Of a DNA stretch of 64,000 bases, positions 4,468 to 26,768 are shown in pieces. A program made the translations under genes and the position numbers. This stretch comes from Oscillibacter valericigenes (GTDB lineage Bacteria > Bacillota > Clostridia > Oscillospirales > Oscillospiraceae). How positions within the stretch are numbered: the stretch's first letter is position 1; every line of letters starts with the position of its first letter. Below the pieces are notes generated by a model. The model was not told the origin of the DNA. It saw only the letters and a program-made list of their open reading frames with translations, and ran no database searches. The stretch spans positions 1 through 64,000 of the forward strand of contig NZ_JAFBIV010000002.1 of NCBI RefSeq assembly GCF_021531915.1, given 5' to 3'.

Positions 4468-5132
4468 TGGCGCAGTTCCCATGCCATGTCCCAGAAGCCC
4501 AGCTCATAGCGGCTGCAGTTGACGAAAATATCCGTCAGGTGGGCGATCTGGTCCTCGGTTGCGTCGGTGGCCAGTTCGTCCATCAGCTCGATCAGGGCCT
4601 GATTGGTGGCGGCATAATCCTCAGAGGCGTAGCCCTGGATCCACTCCCCGTAGAAGGGATGGTCCGCTGCGCCAGGGATGGCTGCCAAAGCCTGACCGAT
4701 CTCCGCGTAGCTCCAGGAGCAGGCCAGGATAGAGGCCACGATCTCCATAGGACCGCCGGTGTGGGCCACGGAGAGCATGTAGTTGGTATAGGACAAATTG
4801 TCCAGAGCAGGCTTCACGGCAAAGACCTGCTCCTCGGTAATGCCCAGCCGCTTCATATAGGCCCGGTGGATGTTCATTTCCCCGTTCAGGATGGCATCCA
4901 CATTCTTGGAGAAGGTCCGCATCAGCTCGGGGTCTCTCGCCTTCACCACGCCCAGAGCGAATACCCGGGCGTAATCAAAGAGGTAGAGATAGTCCTGCAG
5001 CATAAAGTGCCGGAACTTTTCCACATCCAGCGTGCCGTCGCCGATACCGGTGACGAAAGGGTGGTGCAGGCATGTTTCCCACACCGGGTCCGCCGCCTGC
5101 CGCAGACGGGCGGAAACAGACAGGCCGCTCAT
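4464..5132 (-). CDS. tenA: TenA-family aminopyrimidine aminohydrolase (thiaminase II)
   Basis: 222 residues, the normal TenA length. The nucleophilic Cys is in ILACSWSY (Cys138), matching the Cys135 region of the Bacillus enzyme. The C-terminal Glu lies in RYELGFWDMAW. TenA converts aminomethylpyrimidine to hydroxymethylpyrimidine and so salvages degraded thiamin. It overlaps thiD upstream and the ATPase downstream by ATGA junctions. Its position between a pyrimidine importer and the pyrimidine kinase supports the salvage role over thiamin degradation. Confidence 0.93.
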   Translation of the reverse strand: MSGLSVSARLRQAADPVWETCLHHPFVTGIGDGTLDVEKFRHFMLQDYLYLFDYARVFALGVVKARDPELMRTFSKNVDAILNGEMNIHRAYMKRLGITEEQVFAVKPALDNLSYTNYMLSVAHTGGPMEIVASILACSWSYAEIGQALAAIPGAADHPFYGEWIQGYASEDYAATNQALIELMDELATDATEDQIAHLTDIFVNCSRYELGFWDMAWELRQ

Positions 5133-19685: not shown

Positions 19686-19763
<78 letters not shown>

Positions 19764-19765
19764 CG

Positions 19766-19800
19766 AAAAGCCTTGAATCCCAATGGATTCAAGGCTTTTT
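19766..19800 (+). terminator. Terminator after tRNA-Pro (element left end)
   Basis: AAAAGCCTTGAATCC and its complement around CAAT, followed by TTTTT, lie just inside attL. This hairpin comes with the element; the original host terminator is at 26770. Confidence 0.85.
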
Positions 19801-19843
19801 GCTTTTTCCGGAAGTCGGATGAAATTGCGAAAAATCAAAAAAA

Positions 19844-19880
19844 GCGCACAAAAAAGCGCACAACTTTGAAAAAGTGTGCG
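19844..19880. repeat. Left-end arm-type motif array
   Basis: GCGCACA occurs at 19844 and 19856 with an inverted GTGTGCG at 19874-19880. The same direct-direct-inverted pattern with the same 37-bp span is found near the right end (26530-26566). Likely integrase arm-binding sites. Confidence 0.6.
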
Positions 19881-19921
19881 AAAAAGCCGTTGATGCATCG
19901 AGAAAGAAAGGGTGCGTATCA

Positions 19922-21139
19922 ATGGCAAATATCAGAGAAAACACGAAGAATGGCAAGGTAGTTTCCTATCGCTTCACCGCTTGTATGGAGCGTGATGTGC
20001 GTGGAAAGCAAGTCCGCAAGTACACGACTTGGACACCGCCAGAGGGATTGACCCCCGCAAAGGCAAAGAAAGCAGCAGAACGCGCGGCGGACGCTTGGGA
20101 ACAGGAAGTCAGAGCAGAGTACCAAAAGGAAAAGGAATTGGGAGATGCGTATCGTCTTCCGCCCGAAAAGCGTCACGATGATTTTGTTGCCTTTGTCAAT
20201 GAGATGTGGTTGCCGTTGCAGATTCGCGGCGGAGATGCCAAGCCGTCAACCGTTGCTTTCTATGAATTTATGGCAAAGCCTATCACAGACTATTTCAACG
20301 GCGCGGTCTTGCAGGAAATCAGTCCAGTAGAGATTCAGAAATACTTGACCTATCTCCGCACAGAATACAAGACGCGCTCCGGCAAACCGCTTTCTCCCAA
20401 GTCCTTGCGTCACCAGTATGTGACCCTCAATGTGATTTTTGGCTACGCGGCGGAACAAGAAATGCTCGTCAAGAACCCGATGGAGAAAGTCACCGCCCCC
20501 AAGAAAGACAAGAACCCCGTTGACGCATTGACAAAGGAACAGGCCGCGCGGCTCTTTGCTTTGCTCCCGACCTTGCCGCTTGACTTCCATTGTATGATGA
20601 ATCTGCTTGTCACTTCTGGAATCAGACGCGGCGAGTGCATCGGTCTAAAATGGAGTGACATTGACGAAAAGAATCGTACAATCTCCGTTTCCCGAAATGT
20701 TGTTTACAATCCGCGCGGCGGTGTTATCGTCAGCACTCCCAAGACAGCCAAGAGTATTCGCACAGTACCTATTATGGAAAACACGCTGCGGCTGCTCCAA
20801 GAGTACAGAAAGCAGATGCAAGCGGAACACCCAAGCACGATTCTGAAAAACGCGTTCATCTTCCCCCGCAAAGAAGATATTTTCGCTCCCCACGACCCCA
20901 GCGCGGTCACGAGGCGCGTTAAACGCTTTATGAAATTGAATGGCTTTCCTGACCTCTCTCCGCACGATTTGCGCCACTCTTGCGCGACCCTGCTTCTTTC
21001 CCAAGGTGCAGATATAAAGAGCGTACAGGAGATTTTAGGACACGCAGACGCAAGCACAACGCTCAACTTCTATGTGAAAGCCGATTTGCAGCAGATGCAG
21101 GCCGCAACAGAAAAGTATGCCGCCGCGTTTAACCTCTGA
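19922..21139 (+). CDS. int: Tyrosine recombinase / site-specific integrase of the element
   Basis: 405 residues from ATG 19922; in-frame upstream sequence to 19874 lies in the arm-site region. An N-terminal AP2-like arm-binding region rich in basic residues precedes a SAM-like core-binding domain (MWLPLQIRGGDAKPSTVAFYE) and a catalytic domain. The catalytic domain has Arg in TSGIRRGE, HDLRH, the late His of ILGHADAST and Tyr in NFYVKAD. All catalytic residues are present. It lies next to attL in the usual orientation and should recombine the 48-bp tRNA-Pro core. Confidence 0.95.
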   Translation: MANIRENTKNGKVVSYRFTACMERDVRGKQVRKYTTWTPPEGLTPAKAKKAAERAADAWEQEVRAEYQKEKELGDAYRLPPEKRHDDFVAFVNEMWLPLQIRGGDAKPSTVAFYEFMAKPITDYFNGAVLQEISPVEIQKYLTYLRTEYKTRSGKPLSPKSLRHQYVTLNVIFGYAAEQEMLVKNPMEKVTAPKKDKNPVDALTKEQAARLFALLPTLPLDFHCMMNLLVTSGIRRGECIGLKWSDIDEKNRTISVSRNVVYNPRGGVIVSTPKTAKSIRTVPIMENTLRLLQEYRKQMQAEHPSTILKNAFIFPRKEDIFAPHDPSAVTRRVKRFMKLNGFPDLSPHDLRHSCATLLLSQGADIKSVQEILGHADASTTLNFYVKADLQQMQAATEKYAAAFNL

Positions 21140-21192
21140 TTTCCAAAAGCGGAAAAACACGATAGGCGGCGGAGGTTGCCGAAAGTATCAGA

Positions 21193-21225
21193 AAACAGAC
21201 GGGAGATTTTCGCTCCCGTCTGTTG
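21193..21225. terminator. Hairpin between integrase and GIY-YIG gene
   Basis: AACAGACGGGAG and CTCCCGTCTGTT flank a 7-nt loop between two convergent genes. T-runs are weak, so function as a terminator is likely but not certain. Confidence 0.6.
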
Positions 21226-21229
21226 CTCT

Positions 21230-21655
21230 TTATAGCAGGTCTTTCAAGACTTCTCTTGCGTCCACGGCGCACACATCGAATTTGCGCCAATCGTCCTCTC
21301 TTGGAATCTGCGTATTCAAAACGGGGCGGTACTGCCGAATGTACTCGCCCTCTTTTTGGCCGATTTCCTCTTGGACGGCAGGATAATTACGCGCCTTTGC
21401 ATCATAAAGTACATCAAAATTGATGGAATGGCCTTTGCGCTACACTTCCGCCAAGATGCGGTATTTCCGCTCTTTTTGGCCTTTCATGGCTGCGTAGTGC
21501 TGCGCCACGCGTTTCAGCATATTCATACTCTTGCCGATGTAAACAATGGTATCGTCGATCTTGATGCAGTAAATTCCCGCATGGTCGTATTTGGCTGCAA
21601 GTCCTTTTCTTTTGAGCCATTGATAGACATTTTCTTCATAGCTTGTTTTTCTCAA
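21230..21655 (-). CDS. GIY-YIG nuclease-like protein with one in-frame TAG (codon 72)
   Basis: Read through one TAG at 21440-21442 the frame is 141 residues. GIY is in AGIYCIKI, YIG in VYIGKS, and Arg in MLKRVAQHY. After the TAG come FDVLYDA and the conserved Glu helix KEGEYIRQYRPVLN. The catalytic Glu therefore lies after the TAG; a product ending at the TAG (71 residues) would lack it. The start is TTG at 21655, overlapping the stop of the gene before, with GGAGAG upstream. No frameshift or other stop is present. It may be a readthrough gene, a recoded gene or a recent pseudogene. Confidence 0.7.
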
Positions 21656-21837
21656 AACTCAAACTCTCCAAAAGGAATATCTGGATAGTCCGGCATGACT
21701 GCCCCGAAATCATACCTTAATGCTCCGGCAACATTCTCCGCTGCTACTAACACTTCTGGAAAGCGTGTATAGTCCTATTGCTGATATAACGCCCCCAGAA
21801 CGCTTTCCAATGCGTCAATCATTTCATCTACGGTCAA
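21652..21837 (-). CDS. Small hypothetical protein with one in-frame TAG (codon 21)
   Basis: 61 residues if the TAG at 21775-21777 is read as an amino acid. TTG at 21837 follows AAGGAGG by seven bases. The part before the TAG (TVDEMIDALESVLGALYQQ) is an amphipathic helix. The part after it (DYTRFPEVLVAAENVAGAL, then FGAVMPDYPDIPFGEFEF) keeps good coding character but has no start codon of its own near the TAG. The family is not recognised. It ends by overlapping the GIY-YIG start, as expected of an operon gene. Confidence 0.55.
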
Positions 21838-21850
21838 ATGCTTGTCCTCC

Positions 21851-22354
21851 TTAAAATTTGAATTGTGGCGTTGGAGAAACTTGTTTCTCCAACAGCCCAT
21901 TATTATTTATTTTATCTGTATTATTTATATTTATTTCTATATCCTCCGCCGCTTCATCATTTGCGGTTTGCGGTGCATCCTGAACGTCTGCCGTAAAGTC
22001 AAGGCCGTCCGGCGTATCATTATTTTTTGTGTGCGTGTCGCGTTGTGGGGTTTCATAGAAATCATAGGTGTTGCTGTTTTTACGCTGCACAAGATAGCCT
22101 TTATCAATCAGCTTTACAAACTGGTCACGATAAGTAGAGGGCGGCATACCAACAGCCTAACGAATGGCGGCGGGGGATAGAGCCAATGTGAAGCCGTTGG
22201 CGTTGGATGCAAAGTATAAATAGAGCATGAGTGCGTGTGCGCCGAGGTCACGCGCAGCAGCTTGCCAGTTGTCGTTTTTTATTCCGAGGAAGTCAGACGC
22301 GGCGCGTTCTCTGTGAATGGCAATAATCCGTTGATTTGGTACTGTGTTCGGCAT
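21851..22354 (-). CDS. Winged-helix DNA-binding protein with one in-frame TAG (codon 66)
   Basis: 167 residues if the TAG at 22157-22159 is read. The N-terminal PNQRIIAIHRERAASDFLGI and ARDLGAHALMLYLYFASNANG form the first helices of a helix-turn-helix protein common on Firmicute elements. The TAG falls between ALSPAAIR and AVGMPPSTYRDQFVKLIDKGYL, in the middle of the helix-turn-helix, so the recognition helix lies after it. The tail is Asp/Asn-rich. ATG 22354 has AAAGGA nine bases upstream. A regulatory or replication-initiation role is likely. Confidence 0.65.
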
Positions 22355-22379
22355 AACCGATAATCCTTTCTTTTGGAAT

Positions 22380-22397
22380 GGGGGACTTGCGTCCCCC
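22380..22397. other. Short GC hairpin between two operon genes
   Basis: GGGGGAC and GTCCCCC with a TTGC loop lie in the 54-bp gap upstream of the winged-helix gene. No T-run follows on the minus strand, so it is more likely an RNA processing or stability structure than a terminator. Confidence 0.4.
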
Positions 22398-22408
22398 GCT
22401 GAATAAAA

Positions 22409-22651
22409 TTAGTTTCCGAGATTGTTCAGCATATCGCGCAGTTGCTTGATTGCTTCATCCTCAATTCGGATGCTGATGCTTTTCATTACATTTTCAGTAA
22501 TGCGCTACTCCATTTCTTCCATTTCGCGGCGGTGGTTGATTTCTTCCTTCATGCGGTAATGGGTATACATCAAGTTTAGTTGGGCTTGCATTTTGCTGTC
22601 CAATCCACGAATAAAGTAATTAAAAAAGTCATCGTTTTTGTTAGTTTTCAT
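22409..22651 (-). CDS. Small hypothetical protein with one in-frame TAG (codon 49)
   Basis: 80 residues if the TAG at 22505-22507 is read. The first part (DDFFNYFIRGLDSKMQAQLN, then HRREMEEME) is helical and charged. After the TAG, SISIRIEDEAIKQLRDML resembles the strand-helix of ribbon-helix-helix-like regulators. Its start at 22651 overlaps the stop of the gene before it. Of the four TAG genes this is the one where two separate small genes are most conceivable, because an ATG occurs seven codons after the TAG. Confidence 0.5.
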
Positions 22652-22823
22652 TTTTCTGTCCTCCTGTACAATAATCATAATACCAATCTTCAAAAGTGTT
22701 TTTTCGACCTATGGAAATATCAAGCAACATGGTCAATGTATCTTTCTTTGTCATACAATGGCTTGTTGCGTAGTCAGAAATGATTTCATACCAACCGGTA
22801 TCAATCGTGATACTCTTACTCAT
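22641..22823 (-). CDS. Small hypothetical protein, first gene of the element's minus-strand operon
   Basis: 60 residues, ATG 22823 with GGAGG upstream. SKSITIDTGWYEIISDYATSHCMTKKDTLTMLL has a strand-helix-helix layout compatible with a ribbon-helix-helix or antitoxin-like DNA-binding protein, which is an inference from shape only. It is uninterrupted, unlike the next four genes. It overlaps the following gene by 11 bp. Confidence 0.6.
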   Translation of the reverse strand: MSKSITIDTGWYEIISDYATSHCMTKKDTLTMLLDISIGRKNTFEDWYYDYCTGGQKNEN

Positions 22824-22849
22824 GGGATATCCTCCAAAATGTATTAGAA

Positions 22850-22888
22850 TTTATATAAAACATTACTATTTCCTTTGTTTTATATAAA
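22850..22888. promoter_or_regulatory. 12-bp perfect inverted repeat in the leader of the minus-strand operon
   Basis: TTTATATAAAAC and GTTTTATATAAA, 15 bp apart, lie just downstream of the predicted start of transcription. Candidate operator for one of the small element regulators. Confidence 0.55.
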
Positions 22889-22889
22889 T

Positions 22890-22918
22890 ATTATAACAAA
22901 AATTTAATATAAAATCAA
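22890..22918 (-). promoter_or_regulatory. Promoter of the element's minus-strand operon
   Basis: TTGATT (22913-22918) and TATAAT (22890-22895) with a 17-bp spacer lie 67 bp upstream of the first gene. Confidence 0.7.
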
Positions 22919-23259
22919 AAAAGGGCGCCAAGGGAACACTTACGAAAAGCAGTCCGAGAGGCGGCGGGGGTATATTCGGGAGATAAAAAAATGCGAGGCG
23001 CGGCGGCGGAAATGTGTGGGCAGCGCCCCGACGAAGTGATTTTTTGTTTTTGCCGTCATCGTTGCAGTGGTATTTCTCTGATTTCTTCTGGAATTAGGCG
23101 GAAATTGGCCGGATTTCACAGAATATGCGCGAACGCTTGCAAAAATAATTGAATACGACGATAAAACATTGAAAATCGATGTAATTTTGCAAGAACGCAG
23201 TCGTTCCAATGAGAGTTTTCCTTGAAACATACAAAATTCGGTAAATTTCGGCAAAAACC
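22919..23259. other. Non-coding divergent region of the element
   Basis: About 340 bases without a convincing gene, between two divergent operons. It begins with a GC-rich stretch (GGCGGCGGGGG, GCGCGGCGGCGG), then becomes AT-rich with near-repeats of AAATTCGGTAAATTTCGGC. An origin of replication or transfer site would fit here, but no family signature is recognisable. Confidence 0.35.
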
Positions 23260-23288
23260 TTGACAATACATACATATACCTATAACAT
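23260..23288 (+). promoter_or_regulatory. Promoter of the element's plus-strand small genes
   Basis: TTGACA (23260-23265) and TAACAT (23283-23288), 17-bp spacer, lie 67 bp before the start at 23356. Confidence 0.6.
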
Positions 23289-23355
23289 AGAATGTGCGAA
23301 AGCCTGTGCAATATGACAGTTTTCGTACATTTTTGTTATTTAGGAGGAAAACACA

Positions 23356-23553
23356 ATGCGTATTATTCTGGACACGAACAAAGGCAGAATTATTCTTCCC
23401 AAGTCCTTTTTCACCGAACTGGACAAGATGAATAAAATCCTTGCCGACGGCGGTTCTAACAAGAAGTGGACTGCTGAAACCTATGTGAAAGACCAGTTCG
23501 ATAAAGCCATGAAAGAAACCATGCTTCGCGCCGAAGATAAGGTCATAAAGTAA
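23356..23553 (+). CDS. Small hypothetical protein of the element
   Basis: 65 residues; ATG follows AGGAGG by eight bases. MRIILDTNKGRIILPKSFFTEL starts with two strands, then a helical lysine-rich half. The stop TAA overlaps the next start (TAATG). I do not recognise the family. Pairing with a small helix-turn-helix protein suggests a regulatory unit. Confidence 0.6.
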   Translation: MRIILDTNKGRIILPKSFFTELDKMNKILADGGSNKKWTAETYVKDQFDKAMKETMLRAEDKVIK

Positions 23554-23738
23554 TGGCAGCAAAAGGAACGCGGGTCACGCAGAAGGAAAAGGAAAAGATG
23601 TGGCAACTTTTCCAAGACGGAAACAGCTTTGTCAAGATTGGAAAGAAGCTACGCAGAAGTCCCGACACCGTTTCCCGCTATGTGCATGAATACGAAGCCG
23701 CAGTCAGCGCGGCGGGTTATATTCTCAATCAAAAATGA
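23553..23738 (+). CDS. Small helix-turn-helix protein of the element
   Basis: 61 residues. EKMWQLFQDGNSFVKIGKKLRRSPDTVSRYVHEYE is a resolvase-type helix-turn-helix (HTH_7/23-like) with recognition helix SPDTVSRYV. Likely a DNA-binding regulator acting with the preceding protein, to which it is translationally coupled by TAATG. Confidence 0.65.
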   Translation: MAAKGTRVTQKEKEKMWQLFQDGNSFVKIGKKLRRSPDTVSRYVHEYEAAVSAAGYILNQK

Positions 23739-23814
23739 TATTACAATTGTATTTGTTCAATAAATCTTGTTGAAAAGGCATAATTCAAAAGAATACAACA
23801 AAGGAGGAAAAGAA

Positions 23815-24396
23815 ATGGAATGGTTATTATTCCCTCTGGTTTTTCTTTTAGGCGGAATTATTGCCGTGCTTGGAGCCAACAAGAAAGAAAAGGCAGAAGA
23901 ACAAGCAAGAAACGAGTGGAACGCGGAAGAGGAGAAGTATGAAGCGATTATACGTAAACTTCCCTCTGATTTAGTGAACAAACTGTTTGATTTTCTAAAA
24001 CAAGCTTGCAAGAGAATAAACCGTGTTGTGCCAGACTCTTATCCAGTAGAACTTACAAAAATGGCGTTGGCCGCAGGAACCGTTGTAAAAAACGAATCAT
24101 TCGGTGCTGTTACAAGAGAACAACATCGGCAAATTAGCCGCATATTGGACGAAAATCTCGATTGGGTCGTAAATACATACATTCCCGCAGCAAATCAGGC
24201 GCTGATGAAGCTTGCGGATACAGACGGCTTGGGATTTGGATTGATTACAAACAGCGCCGCTGATGCAATGCTGTATAGTGCATTGGATACCCATCAAAGG
24301 CTGAAAGGAAACGAGAAAAAAATCAGGGAATACGAAGAAGCTATTGACAAACAATTGATTCCGATTTTTGAAAAAATCCGCCAAATCGTATCTTAA
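23815..24396 (+). CDS. Membrane-anchored hypothetical protein, element cargo
   Basis: 193 residues from ATG 23815 (AAAGGAGG upstream). One N-terminal membrane helix (LLFPLVFLLGGIIAVLGA) is followed by a charged coiled-coil-like segment (KKEKAEEQARNEWNAEEEKYEA) and a helical cytoplasmic domain. No known motif is visible. It is 13 bp upstream of the CFI-box gene and probably works with it. Host-interaction or stress functions are possible but not shown. Confidence 0.65.
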   Translation: MEWLLFPLVFLLGGIIAVLGANKKEKAEEQARNEWNAEEEKYEAIIRKLPSDLVNKLFDFLKQACKRINRVVPDSYPVELTKMALAAGTVVKNESFGAVTREQHRQISRILDENLDWVVNTYIPAANQALMKLADTDGLGFGLITNSAADAMLYSALDTHQRLKGNEKKIREYEEAIDKQLIPIFEKIRQIVS

Positions 24397-24409
24397 AGGA
24401 GTGTGCTAT

Positions 24410-25699
24410 ATGAAAATTACAGAGGCAACACGATCCATCCAATCCTTATACGATAATGAGCAGTATCGTGAAGCATTTAACTTGGCGATGGAGGCACTGA
24501 AATCTTCTGATGATGATGAAGAAAGAATAACGCTTTGGTGTCTGCTGGCAAATTCCTATCTCAATCGACTTGACCCACCCGAAGATGAAAAATTAGACGA
24601 AACTTATGCGGAGACATTCAAAACGGCGTTTAGTACAGCCCTTTGCGTTGAAGATGTTTGGGAAATAAATGATTGCCTTTGGACAGCATTCAATGTATGG
24701 GAAGCGAACGGATACAGGAAAATGCTGGATTTCATCTCTGATAATCCAACGACCGACAATCTAGATGAGTATATACATTTGCCGGTCAAGTATGCCGGAC
24801 AAAGGCTGCGCTTGCAGTTTCTTTGCGGAACGCATCCTCTTGAAGAAAGATTTATGGAGTCCAATGCTCTTTCGGAGGATGAGTATGCCGAACGATATGC
24901 GCACAACGGCTCTCAGCGCATCACAAAGGACGCCCGTGCACTGTTGCAGATTGATGCCGCAGAAACGATATTTTCTAAAACAAAAAACCGGGTGTCCAAA
25001 GAGGCAAAGGGCAATCTGGATGATGTAATTGATCTAGTGAACTATACAGTCAAGGCTTTGGTTACCGCCAGCGATCTCAGCACTCTTTATGTTGATGGTT
25101 GTTCCGTGGAGACCCAATGCAAAGGCCACAAGCTGCGCGTAGAAATCTGCAGGTACTTATTTGAGACGTATGTTTTCCCTGAAGGACAAAAAATGTCGCT
25201 GTATCAGAATAAGAGACAAATTTTGTTGGATTGGATTCAGGAGTCTTATGATGTGATTACAGAATTGGATTCGGAGTTCATCCCGTCTGCGCTTCCCTCT
25301 AACGAGATGATTCCTTTTGCCGAGGTGAAGGAACATTTGGAATCTCTTAAAGGAAAAAATGCAGAAAACGATGTCCCTGCATCCTCCGCGCCGGCAACTT
25401 CTGCCCCCGTATCTTCCACACAGAAATCTGGCGGCTGTTACGTCGCTACTGCTGTGTATGGGTCTTACGATTGTCCTGAGGTGTGGACTTTGCGTCGATT
25501 CCGCGACTATACACTTGCTGAAACTTGGCACGGTCGTGCATTTATCCGCACATATTATGCAATTAGTCCGACCCTTGTAAAATGGTTTGGACATACTGAA
25601 TGGTTTAAGAACATTTGGAAACCGACCCTTGACCGTATGGTTGATAAACTAAATAGTAATGGCGTAGAAAACACGCCCTACAACGATAAAGAATGGTAA
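24410..25699 (+). CDS. CFI-box C-terminal domain protein with helical-repeat N-terminus, element cargo
   Basis: 429 residues from ATG 24410 (AAAGGAG eight bases upstream). The N-terminus (SIQSLYDNEQYREAFNLAMEAL) looks like a TPR-type helical repeat. After a linker rich in Ser/Ala/Pro (residues about 325-340) comes the CFI-box type domain: GGCYVATAVYGSYDCPEVW, TLRRFRDYTL, ISPTLVKWFG. This domain is found in many bacteria after varied N-termini; its function is unknown. Genes like this are often on mobile or accessory DNA. It is followed by no clear terminator. Confidence 0.75.
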   Translation: MKITEATRSIQSLYDNEQYREAFNLAMEALKSSDDDEERITLWCLLANSYLNRLDPPEDEKLDETYAETFKTAFSTALCVEDVWEINDCLWTAFNVWEANGYRKMLDFISDNPTTDNLDEYIHLPVKYAGQRLRLQFLCGTHPLEERFMESNALSEDEYAERYAHNGSQRITKDARALLQIDAAETIFSKTKNRVSKEAKGNLDDVIDLVNYTVKALVTASDLSTLYVDGCSVETQCKGHKLRVEICRYLFETYVFPEGQKMSLYQNKRQILLDWIQESYDVITELDSEFIPSALPSNEMIPFAEVKEHLESLKGKNAENDVPASSAPATSAPVSSTQKSGGCYVATAVYGSYDCPEVWTLRRFRDYTLAETWHGRAFIRTYYAISPTLVKWFGHTEWFKNIWKPTLDRMVDKLNSNGVENTPYNDKEW

Positions 25700-25786
25700 T
25701 AGCTTGGAGCGGGAGCATTCCCGCTCCTTTCCTATCTGTTCGCAAGAGTACACCTTTACAAACACGGAAAATCTCCCTGTTTTTCT

Positions 25787-25870
25787 TGTTCGTATAGTAT
25801 GATTTTTATTTTACAAATATATTCGTAAACATATTGACATTTACGAATAATCGTGGTACAATACGAACAG
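25787..25870. promoter_or_regulatory. Promoter with nested inverted repeats upstream of the serine recombinase
   Basis: TTGACA (25834-25839) and TACAAT (25857-25862), 17-bp spacer. The inner repeat ATTCGTAAA (25821-25829)/TTTACGAAT (25840-25848) overlaps the -35 and spacer; an outer pair TGTTCGTAT/ATACGAACA surrounds it. It may be an autoregulatory operator or res-type recombination site. Confidence 0.65.
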
Positions 25871-25892
25871 ATAGAACAAAGGGGGACACGAC

Positions 25893-26498
25893 ATGGACAG
25901 CCGCACTTACTACTACGCCAGAGTATCAAGCAAGGAACAAAACCTTGACCGCCAGATTGCCGCTTTTAAGGCTCTTGGAGCTACCGAGCGGGAGATTATC
26001 ACCGACAAGGAAAGCGGCAAGGATTTGGAGCGGGCGGGTTATCAGGCTCTTAAAAACGCCATGCTGCGGCGGGGTGACACCCTTGTTGTGAAATCCCTTG
26101 ACCGTTTGAGCCGCAACAAGTGCGACATAAAAAATGAACTGCAATACTTCAAGGACAACGGCATTCGGCTGAAAGTCATTGACCTCCCCACAACCATGAT
26201 GGAGCTGCCAGAGGGGCAGGAGTGGGTTTTTGAGATGGTCAACAACATTCTGATTGAAGTCTTGGGAACGATTGCCGAGCAGGAGCGGGAGACCATTCGT
26301 AAGCGTCAGGCAGAGGGCATTGAAGCGGCGAAGCAGAACGGCAAGAAACTGGGACGCCCCGCGCTCACTTTCCCCGCAAACTGGAATGAGGTTTATGCCT
26401 CTTGGAAAGCAGGAGAAATAACCGCAAAGACTGCCATGGAGCAGACGAACACAAAGCGAACCAGCTTCTACAAGTTGGTCGGCATGATGGAGGAGTAG
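25893..26498 (+). CDS. Serine recombinase, resolvase/invertase family
   Basis: 201 residues. The catalytic Ser is in YYARVSSKEQNLDRQ, with the active-site Arg region VVKSLDRLSRNK and the E-helix GTIAEQERETIRKRQAEGI. A short C-terminal helix-turn-helix (TAKTAMEQTNTKRTSFYKL) completes it. The size is that of Tn3-type resolvases. The stop is TAG. Unlike the in-frame TAGs of the minus-strand genes, no conserved sequence follows, so here TAG works as a stop. It may resolve element multimers. Confidence 0.92.
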   Translation: MDSRTYYYARVSSKEQNLDRQIAAFKALGATEREIITDKESGKDLERAGYQALKNAMLRRGDTLVVKSLDRLSRNKCDIKNELQYFKDNGIRLKVIDLPTTMMELPEGQEWVFEMVNNILIEVLGTIAEQERETIRKRQAEGIEAAKQNGKKLGRPALTFPANWNEVYASWKAGEITAKTAMEQTNTKRTSFYKLVGMMEE

Positions 26499-26529
26499 GG
26501 AATACAGCGAAAATTATCATTCAAATTGA

Positions 26530-26566
26530 GCGCACAAAAAGCGCACAAGCCTCAAAAACTGTGCGC
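26530..26566. repeat. Right-end arm-type motif array, also a terminator-like hairpin
   Basis: GCGCACA at 26530 and 26541 and inverted TGTGCGC at 26560 mirror the left-end array in order and total span. The second and third copies form a stem with a T-run (to 26572), which may also end recombinase transcription. Confidence 0.6.
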
Positions 26567-26595
26567 TTTTTCTTCTGGAATTGTGCAAAAAAAGA

Positions 26596-26624
26596 TTGTA
26601 TCGGCGGCGGAGGTATGGTATAAT
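26596..26624 (+). promoter_or_regulatory. Right-end promoter reading toward attR
   Basis: TTGTAT and TATAAT with a 17-bp spacer lie 100 bp inside attR, pointing outward. No gene follows in the integrated state before the terminator at 26770. Confidence 0.65.
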
Positions 26625-26692
26625 AAAAGTGTAAAAAACATAGATGTATCAAGGCTTTCAGCGTTTTTTGAAAGCGTGATTTCGATGAATAA

Positions 26693-26719
26693 AAGATTTG
26701 ATGCAACGCATCAAATCTT
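26693..26719. repeat. 12-bp perfect inverted repeat abutting attR
   Basis: AAGATTTGATGC and GCATCAAATCTT around AAC end one base before the 48-bp core. It could be a recombination-directionality site or a hairpin in a transcript from the promoter at 26596. Confidence 0.6.
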
Positions 26720-26720
26720 A

Positions 26721-26768
26721 ACTGGGGGTCAAGGGGTCGTGAGTTCAAGTCTCGCCACTCGGACCAGT
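26721..26768 (+). repeat. attR: 48-bp direct repeat of the tRNA-Pro 3' half
   Basis: Identical to 19716-19763. Upstream sequence here does not complete a tRNA, so this is the displaced 3' end of the original gene. Confidence 0.9.

Follow-up and report, generated by a model that had tools for sequence, protein, structure and literature searches.

The DNA analysed here (hereafter the window, 64,000 nucleotides from a contig of Oscillibacter valericigenes) contains an integrated element of about 7.0 kb, whose minus-strand operon appears to follow genetic code 15, in which UAG = Gln, and whose other genes, like those of the host, appear to use the standard code. The reading of TAG as Gln in this operon, as opposed to decay, is well supported because TAGs match Gln sites in homologues, exchange with CAG and CAA, are confined to certain genes, and have even dN/dS ratios on either side. 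The element belongs to a family of small mobile elements in gut Clostridia, which are phage-satellite-like in having an integrase, a putative replication-type gene, a nuclease and cargo but lacking virion genes. Our preferred explanation, to which we assign a probability of roughly one half, is that these satellite-like elements carry a code-15 operon that awaits a code-15 phage for the decoding tRNA. Slightly short of even odds, we would place the further proposal that they are code-gated phage satellites as a class, with a replication/nuclease operon in the helper's code 15 and behind the helper's type of promoter, so that codon meaning itself would be the induction signal.

The element is inserted at a tRNA-Pro(GGG) gene (19686-19761) and flanked by a 52-nt direct repeat of tRNA-Pro sequence (19712-19763 and 26717-26768, 98%). 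Its features are as follows.

19686-26768: integrated element of about 7.0 kb in tRNA-Pro(GGG), delimited by the tRNA and the direct repeat
19874-21139, plus strand: tyrosine integrase, no in-frame TAG (Pfam Phage_integrase, 1e-31)
21230-21655, minus strand: predicted GIY-YIG endonuclease, TAG at codon 72 (21440-21442)
21652-21837, minus strand: 61-aa gene, TAG at codon 21 (21775-21777), kept with TAG in the relative G342
21851-22354, minus strand: winged-helix, replication-initiator-like gene, TAG at codon 66 (22157-22159; phrog_270, 4e-6)
22409-22651, minus strand: 80-aa gene, first recoded gene, TAG at codon 49 (22505-22507)
22641-22823, minus strand: 60-aa leader gene of the operon, no TAG
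22883-22919, minus strand: predicted 37-nt promoter of the recoded operon, by sequence motif, TTTGATTTT-N12-TGTTATAATATTTATA
23356-23553, plus strand: small MraZ/AbrB-like gene, divergent, no TAG (weak MraZ match)
23553-23738, plus strand: HTH protein, no TAG (Pfam HTH_38, 1e-6)
23767-25699, plus strand: cargo (predicted 209 and 443 aa), no Pfam match above cut-off and no PADLOC match
25893-26498, plus strand: serine recombinase, no TAG (family tally 0/56)

Structural or lytic genes are not part of the element's gene content, and PADLOC identified no defence cargo in it. The MraZ/AbrB-like gene has the same layout in two other loci (L095 and L098). Long non-coding stretches flank the recoded operon.

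The initial annotation had described four operon genes with a single TAG each, no TAA or TGA and no frameshift, and this was confirmed at every position. With TAG translated as Gln, the genes at 22409-22651, 21851-22354, 21652-21837 and 21230-21655 encode 80, 167, 61 and 141 aa and end naturally at TAA, TAA, TGA and TAA, respectively. The gene overlaps are indeed operon-like: the GIY-YIG gene begins with TTG, and this start codon overlaps the stop of the 61-aa gene. Judged from the window alone, decay is only a somewhat unlikely source of the TAG-only pattern: computed from one-step routes to stop codons, the probability that four of four stops are TAG is 0.02 for any change and 0.04 for transitions.

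Two of the interrupted genes encode recognizable folds, and in both the TAG splits the fold, as had been proposed. The GIY-YIG product gave an AF2 model with a pLDDT of 93, a profile match to T4 endonuclease II (1.6e-8), and Foldseek hits that were nearest to UvrC GIY-YIG domains and T4 EndoII; its Pfam score (20.7 bits) was just below the cut-off of 22.6. The GIY/YIG motif, R49 and E102 are invariant among 27 sequences. By motif, conserved Arg and Glu, and modelled fold, the protein is predicted to be a GIY-YIG endonuclease, which shares fold and motif with T4 endonuclease II and UvrC but is interrupted by UAG. The interruption lies mid-fold and ahead of invariant Glu102, which is probably catalytic, so that a UAG-terminated product would lack this residue. 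In the Rep-like protein, the AF2 model places a winged helix at residues 27-100, interrupted by the TAG of this gene, and homologues have Q opposite the TAG. Foldseek matches for this domain were weak, and its putative role in replication initiation is suggested by the modest PHROG match. Neither GIY nor Rep was found in named phages.

Homologues decisively bore out that the TAG pattern is genuine. A read-through search of 400 same-family genomes with the GIY-YIG product added eight close homologues, of which two lie on other contigs (C21 and C44) of the genome that contains the window; all eight have one to three TAGs and no other stop in the matched stretch. An order-level sample contributed two matches in other families, likewise with TAGs (one of them, G632, identical in sequence to L104), and a scan of GTDB found further relatives in gut genomes of ruminant and other origin; one of these is the isolate Pseudoflavonifractor phocaeensis An901. 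The comparison set comprised 28 GIY-YIG homologues from gut Clostridia, phages and elements. At least one TAG was present in 25 of them (1-4 each, 57 in total). The open reading frames of the homologues examined end at 133-143 codons, and all 24 recorded ends were TGA (13) or TAA (11), at homologous lengths; internal TAA, TGA or frameshifts were absent from the relatives. A codon tally of the family counted three TAA/TGA codons; these are probably natural stops that the alignments reached, as the reading frames themselves are open. Carriers span many genera, several families and independent assemblies, with three distinct copies in one genome. Homologues of the 80-aa gene mostly have one TAG, frequently at a different Gln, and a homologue of the leader gene, in G040, has one as well. 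Pseudogenisation was rejected, since sister elements keep their TAGs, frequently at other Gln positions.

The initial annotation had suggested that Gln would fit the TAGs and that an alignment with homologues should reveal the residue; this residue is Gln. At 28 of the 57 TAG sites in the GIY-YIG family, the nearest homologue without TAG has Gln, compared with a background of 3%, and in a likelihood comparison Gln was ahead of the next residue, Glu, by 38 nats. Close pairs (72-99% identity) had TAG in both members at 24 sites, and 29 of the 50 differences between TAG and another codon were TAG versus CAG or CAA. Purifying selection does not stop at the TAGs: between the window and G342, dN/dS was 0.20 upstream and 0.20 downstream (three genes pooled), and other GIY-YIG pairs had full-length ratios of 0.07-0.23. 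The equal ratios on either side of the TAG imply that the downstream halves are translated somewhere, sometime.

TAG usage is also consistent with recoding that is local to the element, as had been surmised. TAG represents 67 of 189 Gln codons (35%) in the GIY-YIG family; the corresponding counts are 8 of 45 for the first gene, 4 of 13 for the 71-aa gene and 5 of 121 for RepA. The base that follows TAG resembles the base that follows CAG. TAG was not found in the f145, f155, f130, XRE, SprT-like, f91 and recombinase genes. Integrase families A and B also lacked it, while in family C it accounted for 2 of 202 Gln codons (0-1% across integrase families). By a rough gene call, 3 of 36 host genes in the window end in TAG. 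Residues opposite TAG, TAG/CAG exchange, dN/dS and codon tallies thus agree on Gln, and TAG is confined to one operon.

Recoded operons are not restricted to chromosomes. Two circular plasmids from rat cecum, pRGI00117 (HG796263.1, 7.2 kb) and the similar pRGI00100 (HG796260.1, 7.6 kb), carry such operons, the former with the GIY-YIG gene, a recoded TerS (phrog_2538, 7e-29) and a recoded 163-aa gene next to a plasmid Rep in standard code; no TerL or capsid gene was seen in pRGI00117. TerS was not recognized in the chromosomal elements. Both plasmids are publicly annotated as fragments under the standard code, apparently with in-frame TAGs taken as stops, and a term search of the plasmids' paper gave no mention of recoding (PMC3913684).

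The Rep/GIY module is also found in temperate phages of about 25 kb. In one of these (L126) the late genes are recoded too, and in two others (L128 and L125) TAGs occur in the module only. Gut phages of this size with related large terminases are a mixture of recoded (L321, L322, L325, L326, L126) and standard-code (L318, L324) members, and TAG reaches 43 of 127 Gln codons in L321. L126 has a complete tRNA-Thr(CGT) between its late genes and its integrase (5045-5120), probably its att site. Near-complete contigs of the recoded phages contained no tRNA-CUA, so that another decoding route may exist.

A resident decoder was not detected. The initial annotation had suggested a search of the full genome and of related elements for a CUA-anticodon tRNA, and none was found. 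We used ARAGORN in default, relaxed and intron-tolerant modes, the Rfam tRNA model with E-values up to 5, and CUA-loop patterns. There was no CUA tRNA among the 48 tRNA matches of the window's genome, in G254, a near-closed genome of the same genus (main contig 3.16 Mb, 44 anticodons) whose ordinary tRNA set is complete, in the element loci, or, by pattern scan, in 22 carrier genomes. Candidates turned out to be tRNA-Arg(UCU), tRNA-Leu, tRNA-Ser or RNase P. A candidate at the end of one contig (G037:C175) was chromosomal in location and received no tRNA-CUA call. RF1 was intact in six carriers, and no anti-RF1 gene of a known type was seen.

Since elements and hosts apparently cannot read the code with their own tRNAs, the operon is probably silent until an infecting phage or the like brings the decoder. 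The evidence supports the recoding well; a helper is what we infer. In an uninfected cell, RF1 would end translation at UAG, and nuclease and replication protein would not be made. A large code-15 phage, using the same class of promoter, would then enter the cell with a Gln-charged tRNA-CUA and perhaps also drive transcription of the operon. Only then would the operon be translated, and the element would replicate and be packaged by the helper. Neither spacers, co-culture nor shared genes tie a helper to this host. A resident code-15 prophage was considered as helper and rejected: TerL matches in carriers did not exhibit consistent TAG-only recoding, and in the one that was checked (G408) TAG appears to be a true stop. 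A search for the helper in IMG/VR with the TerS of pRGI00117 returned a single distant match, in standard code.

The predicted promoter of the operon is suggestive of a tie to such a helper, though not proof of it. The exact 37-nt motif occurs three times in the genome of the window, once per recoded element, and the nine occurrences of its strict form in 20 carrier genomes are all at elements. The strict form is missing from about half of the operons, and its TATAAT part, when matched less strictly, was found upstream of 13 of 24, including that of pRGI00117. The core is sigma-A-like (TTGATT, 17 nt, TGTTATAAT, plus extra conserved positions), and host polymerase may therefore use it. In IMG/VR, 48 stretches match the motif exactly, all with a spacer of 12 although 6-12 was allowed, many of them on contigs of 100-190 kb. 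Large phage contigs (L385-L432) contain many near-copies, frequently inside tRNA arrays. In 438 kb of large-phage loci there were 130 near-matches, against none for the reversed motif. Three promoter-bearing phage loci encode a tRNA-CUA, which in two cases is most similar to the tRNA-Gln of hosts, and some such loci are TAG-rich (35% of Gln codons in L429, 34% in L386). The phages that share the operon's promoter are thus a possible source of the decoder, which the initial annotation had not foreseen. The sharing may also reflect a general AT-rich promoter class, and in the parts of the promoter-bearing loci that were read, the element proteins had no homologue.

The main rival to decoding by a helper phage is that a near-cognate tRNA-Gln of the host reads UAG when RF1 is limiting, due to stress, phage take-over or an anti-RF1 factor. 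Such a route, which we regard as unlikely but not negligible, would account for both the Gln identity and the missing tRNA-CUA in the elements and the small code-15 phages, and it gains weight because the latter lack this tRNA; Gln, among other residues, is inserted at UAG in RF1-less E. coli (PMC6207430). However, RF1 is intact, no known anti-RF1 gene was seen, and three or four TAGs per gene would require efficient decoding.

Efficient recoding requires some decoder, and the long non-coding stretches beside the operon could hold a degenerate or split suppressor tRNA, in the element or elsewhere in the host, that ARAGORN, Rfam and patterns had missed. We consider this improbable, as the relaxed and intron-tolerant searches were negative and the tRNA set of G254 is ordinary and complete. 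Programmed amber readthrough at a low level, with little full-length protein in normal cells, is less probable still: the single TAG in each gene of the window would permit it, but relatives have up to four per gene at variable positions, and these behave as plain Gln codons in their following base and in their 35% share of GIY-YIG Gln codons. Decay, sequencing error or non-functional remnants of code-15 phages can practically be dismissed, despite the P of 0.02-0.04 that the four window TAGs alone would leave, given dN/dS of 0.20 past the TAG, GIY-YIG reading frames without TAA, TGA or frameshift in relatives, independent assemblies, an isolate, and three distinct copies in one genome.

Operons that await a code-15 helper would differ from known systems in several respects. 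Code-15 phages and their suppressor tRNAs have been described (PMC9523058, PMC10879173), and the TAG-to-Gln change was demonstrated in crAss-like phages by metaproteomics (PMC9523058). Such gut phages (crAss-like, Lak) likewise read TAG as Gln, mainly in some genes and in a standard-code host, but they are whole phages that usually bring their own suppressor tRNA, in contrast to a 7-kb element without virion genes or suppressor. With PICIs and SaPIs the element shares an integrase, an att site, a putative replication-type gene and the lack of virion genes; PICI criteria include a size of around 12-15 kb (PMC6092414), and at about 7.0 kb the window element falls below it. The proposed control would also differ, in that it would act through codon meaning and not through a repressor or activator alone. 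TerS without TerL, a packaging-hijack feature of satellites (PMC6092414), is found in the recoded plasmid relatives, and pRGI00117 and pRGI00100 are also small elements with recoded operons, which replicate as plasmids instead of being integrated.

The initial annotation knew of no chromosomal satellite with such recoding, and the full-text literature searched, largely without subscription papers, contained no satellite, plasmid or chromosomal element so recoded; novelty is therefore provisional. The code-15 recoding described so far is that of whole phages with a suppressor tRNA of their own. New would be its stable presence in integrated elements and plasmids without this tRNA, in hosts with full standard tRNAs and RF1. 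If true, this would mean that a variant genetic code can serve as a lock in trans, would open the reasons for phage recoding to direct tests in a small system, and would imply that genes of this kind are broken by standard annotation in cultured gut bacteria and in plasmid databases.

Several side observations concern other loci. One group of elements has tandem paralogous genes of about 110-180 aa (f145/f155/f130) ahead of the recoded operon (for example, L087:5928-6925 and L105:4987-6473); the two that were tested had no Pfam or PHROG match. A defence-type gene for an OLD-like ATPase/TOPRIM nuclease lies near the recoded module of L104 (10033-11763). Finally, a tRNA 3' half (CTTCACACGCAGGAGGTCACTGGTTCGAGTCCAGTAGTCTCCA) occurs in two shared fragments, L079 (G000:C25) and L080 (G000:C33), which may be att remnants of another element.
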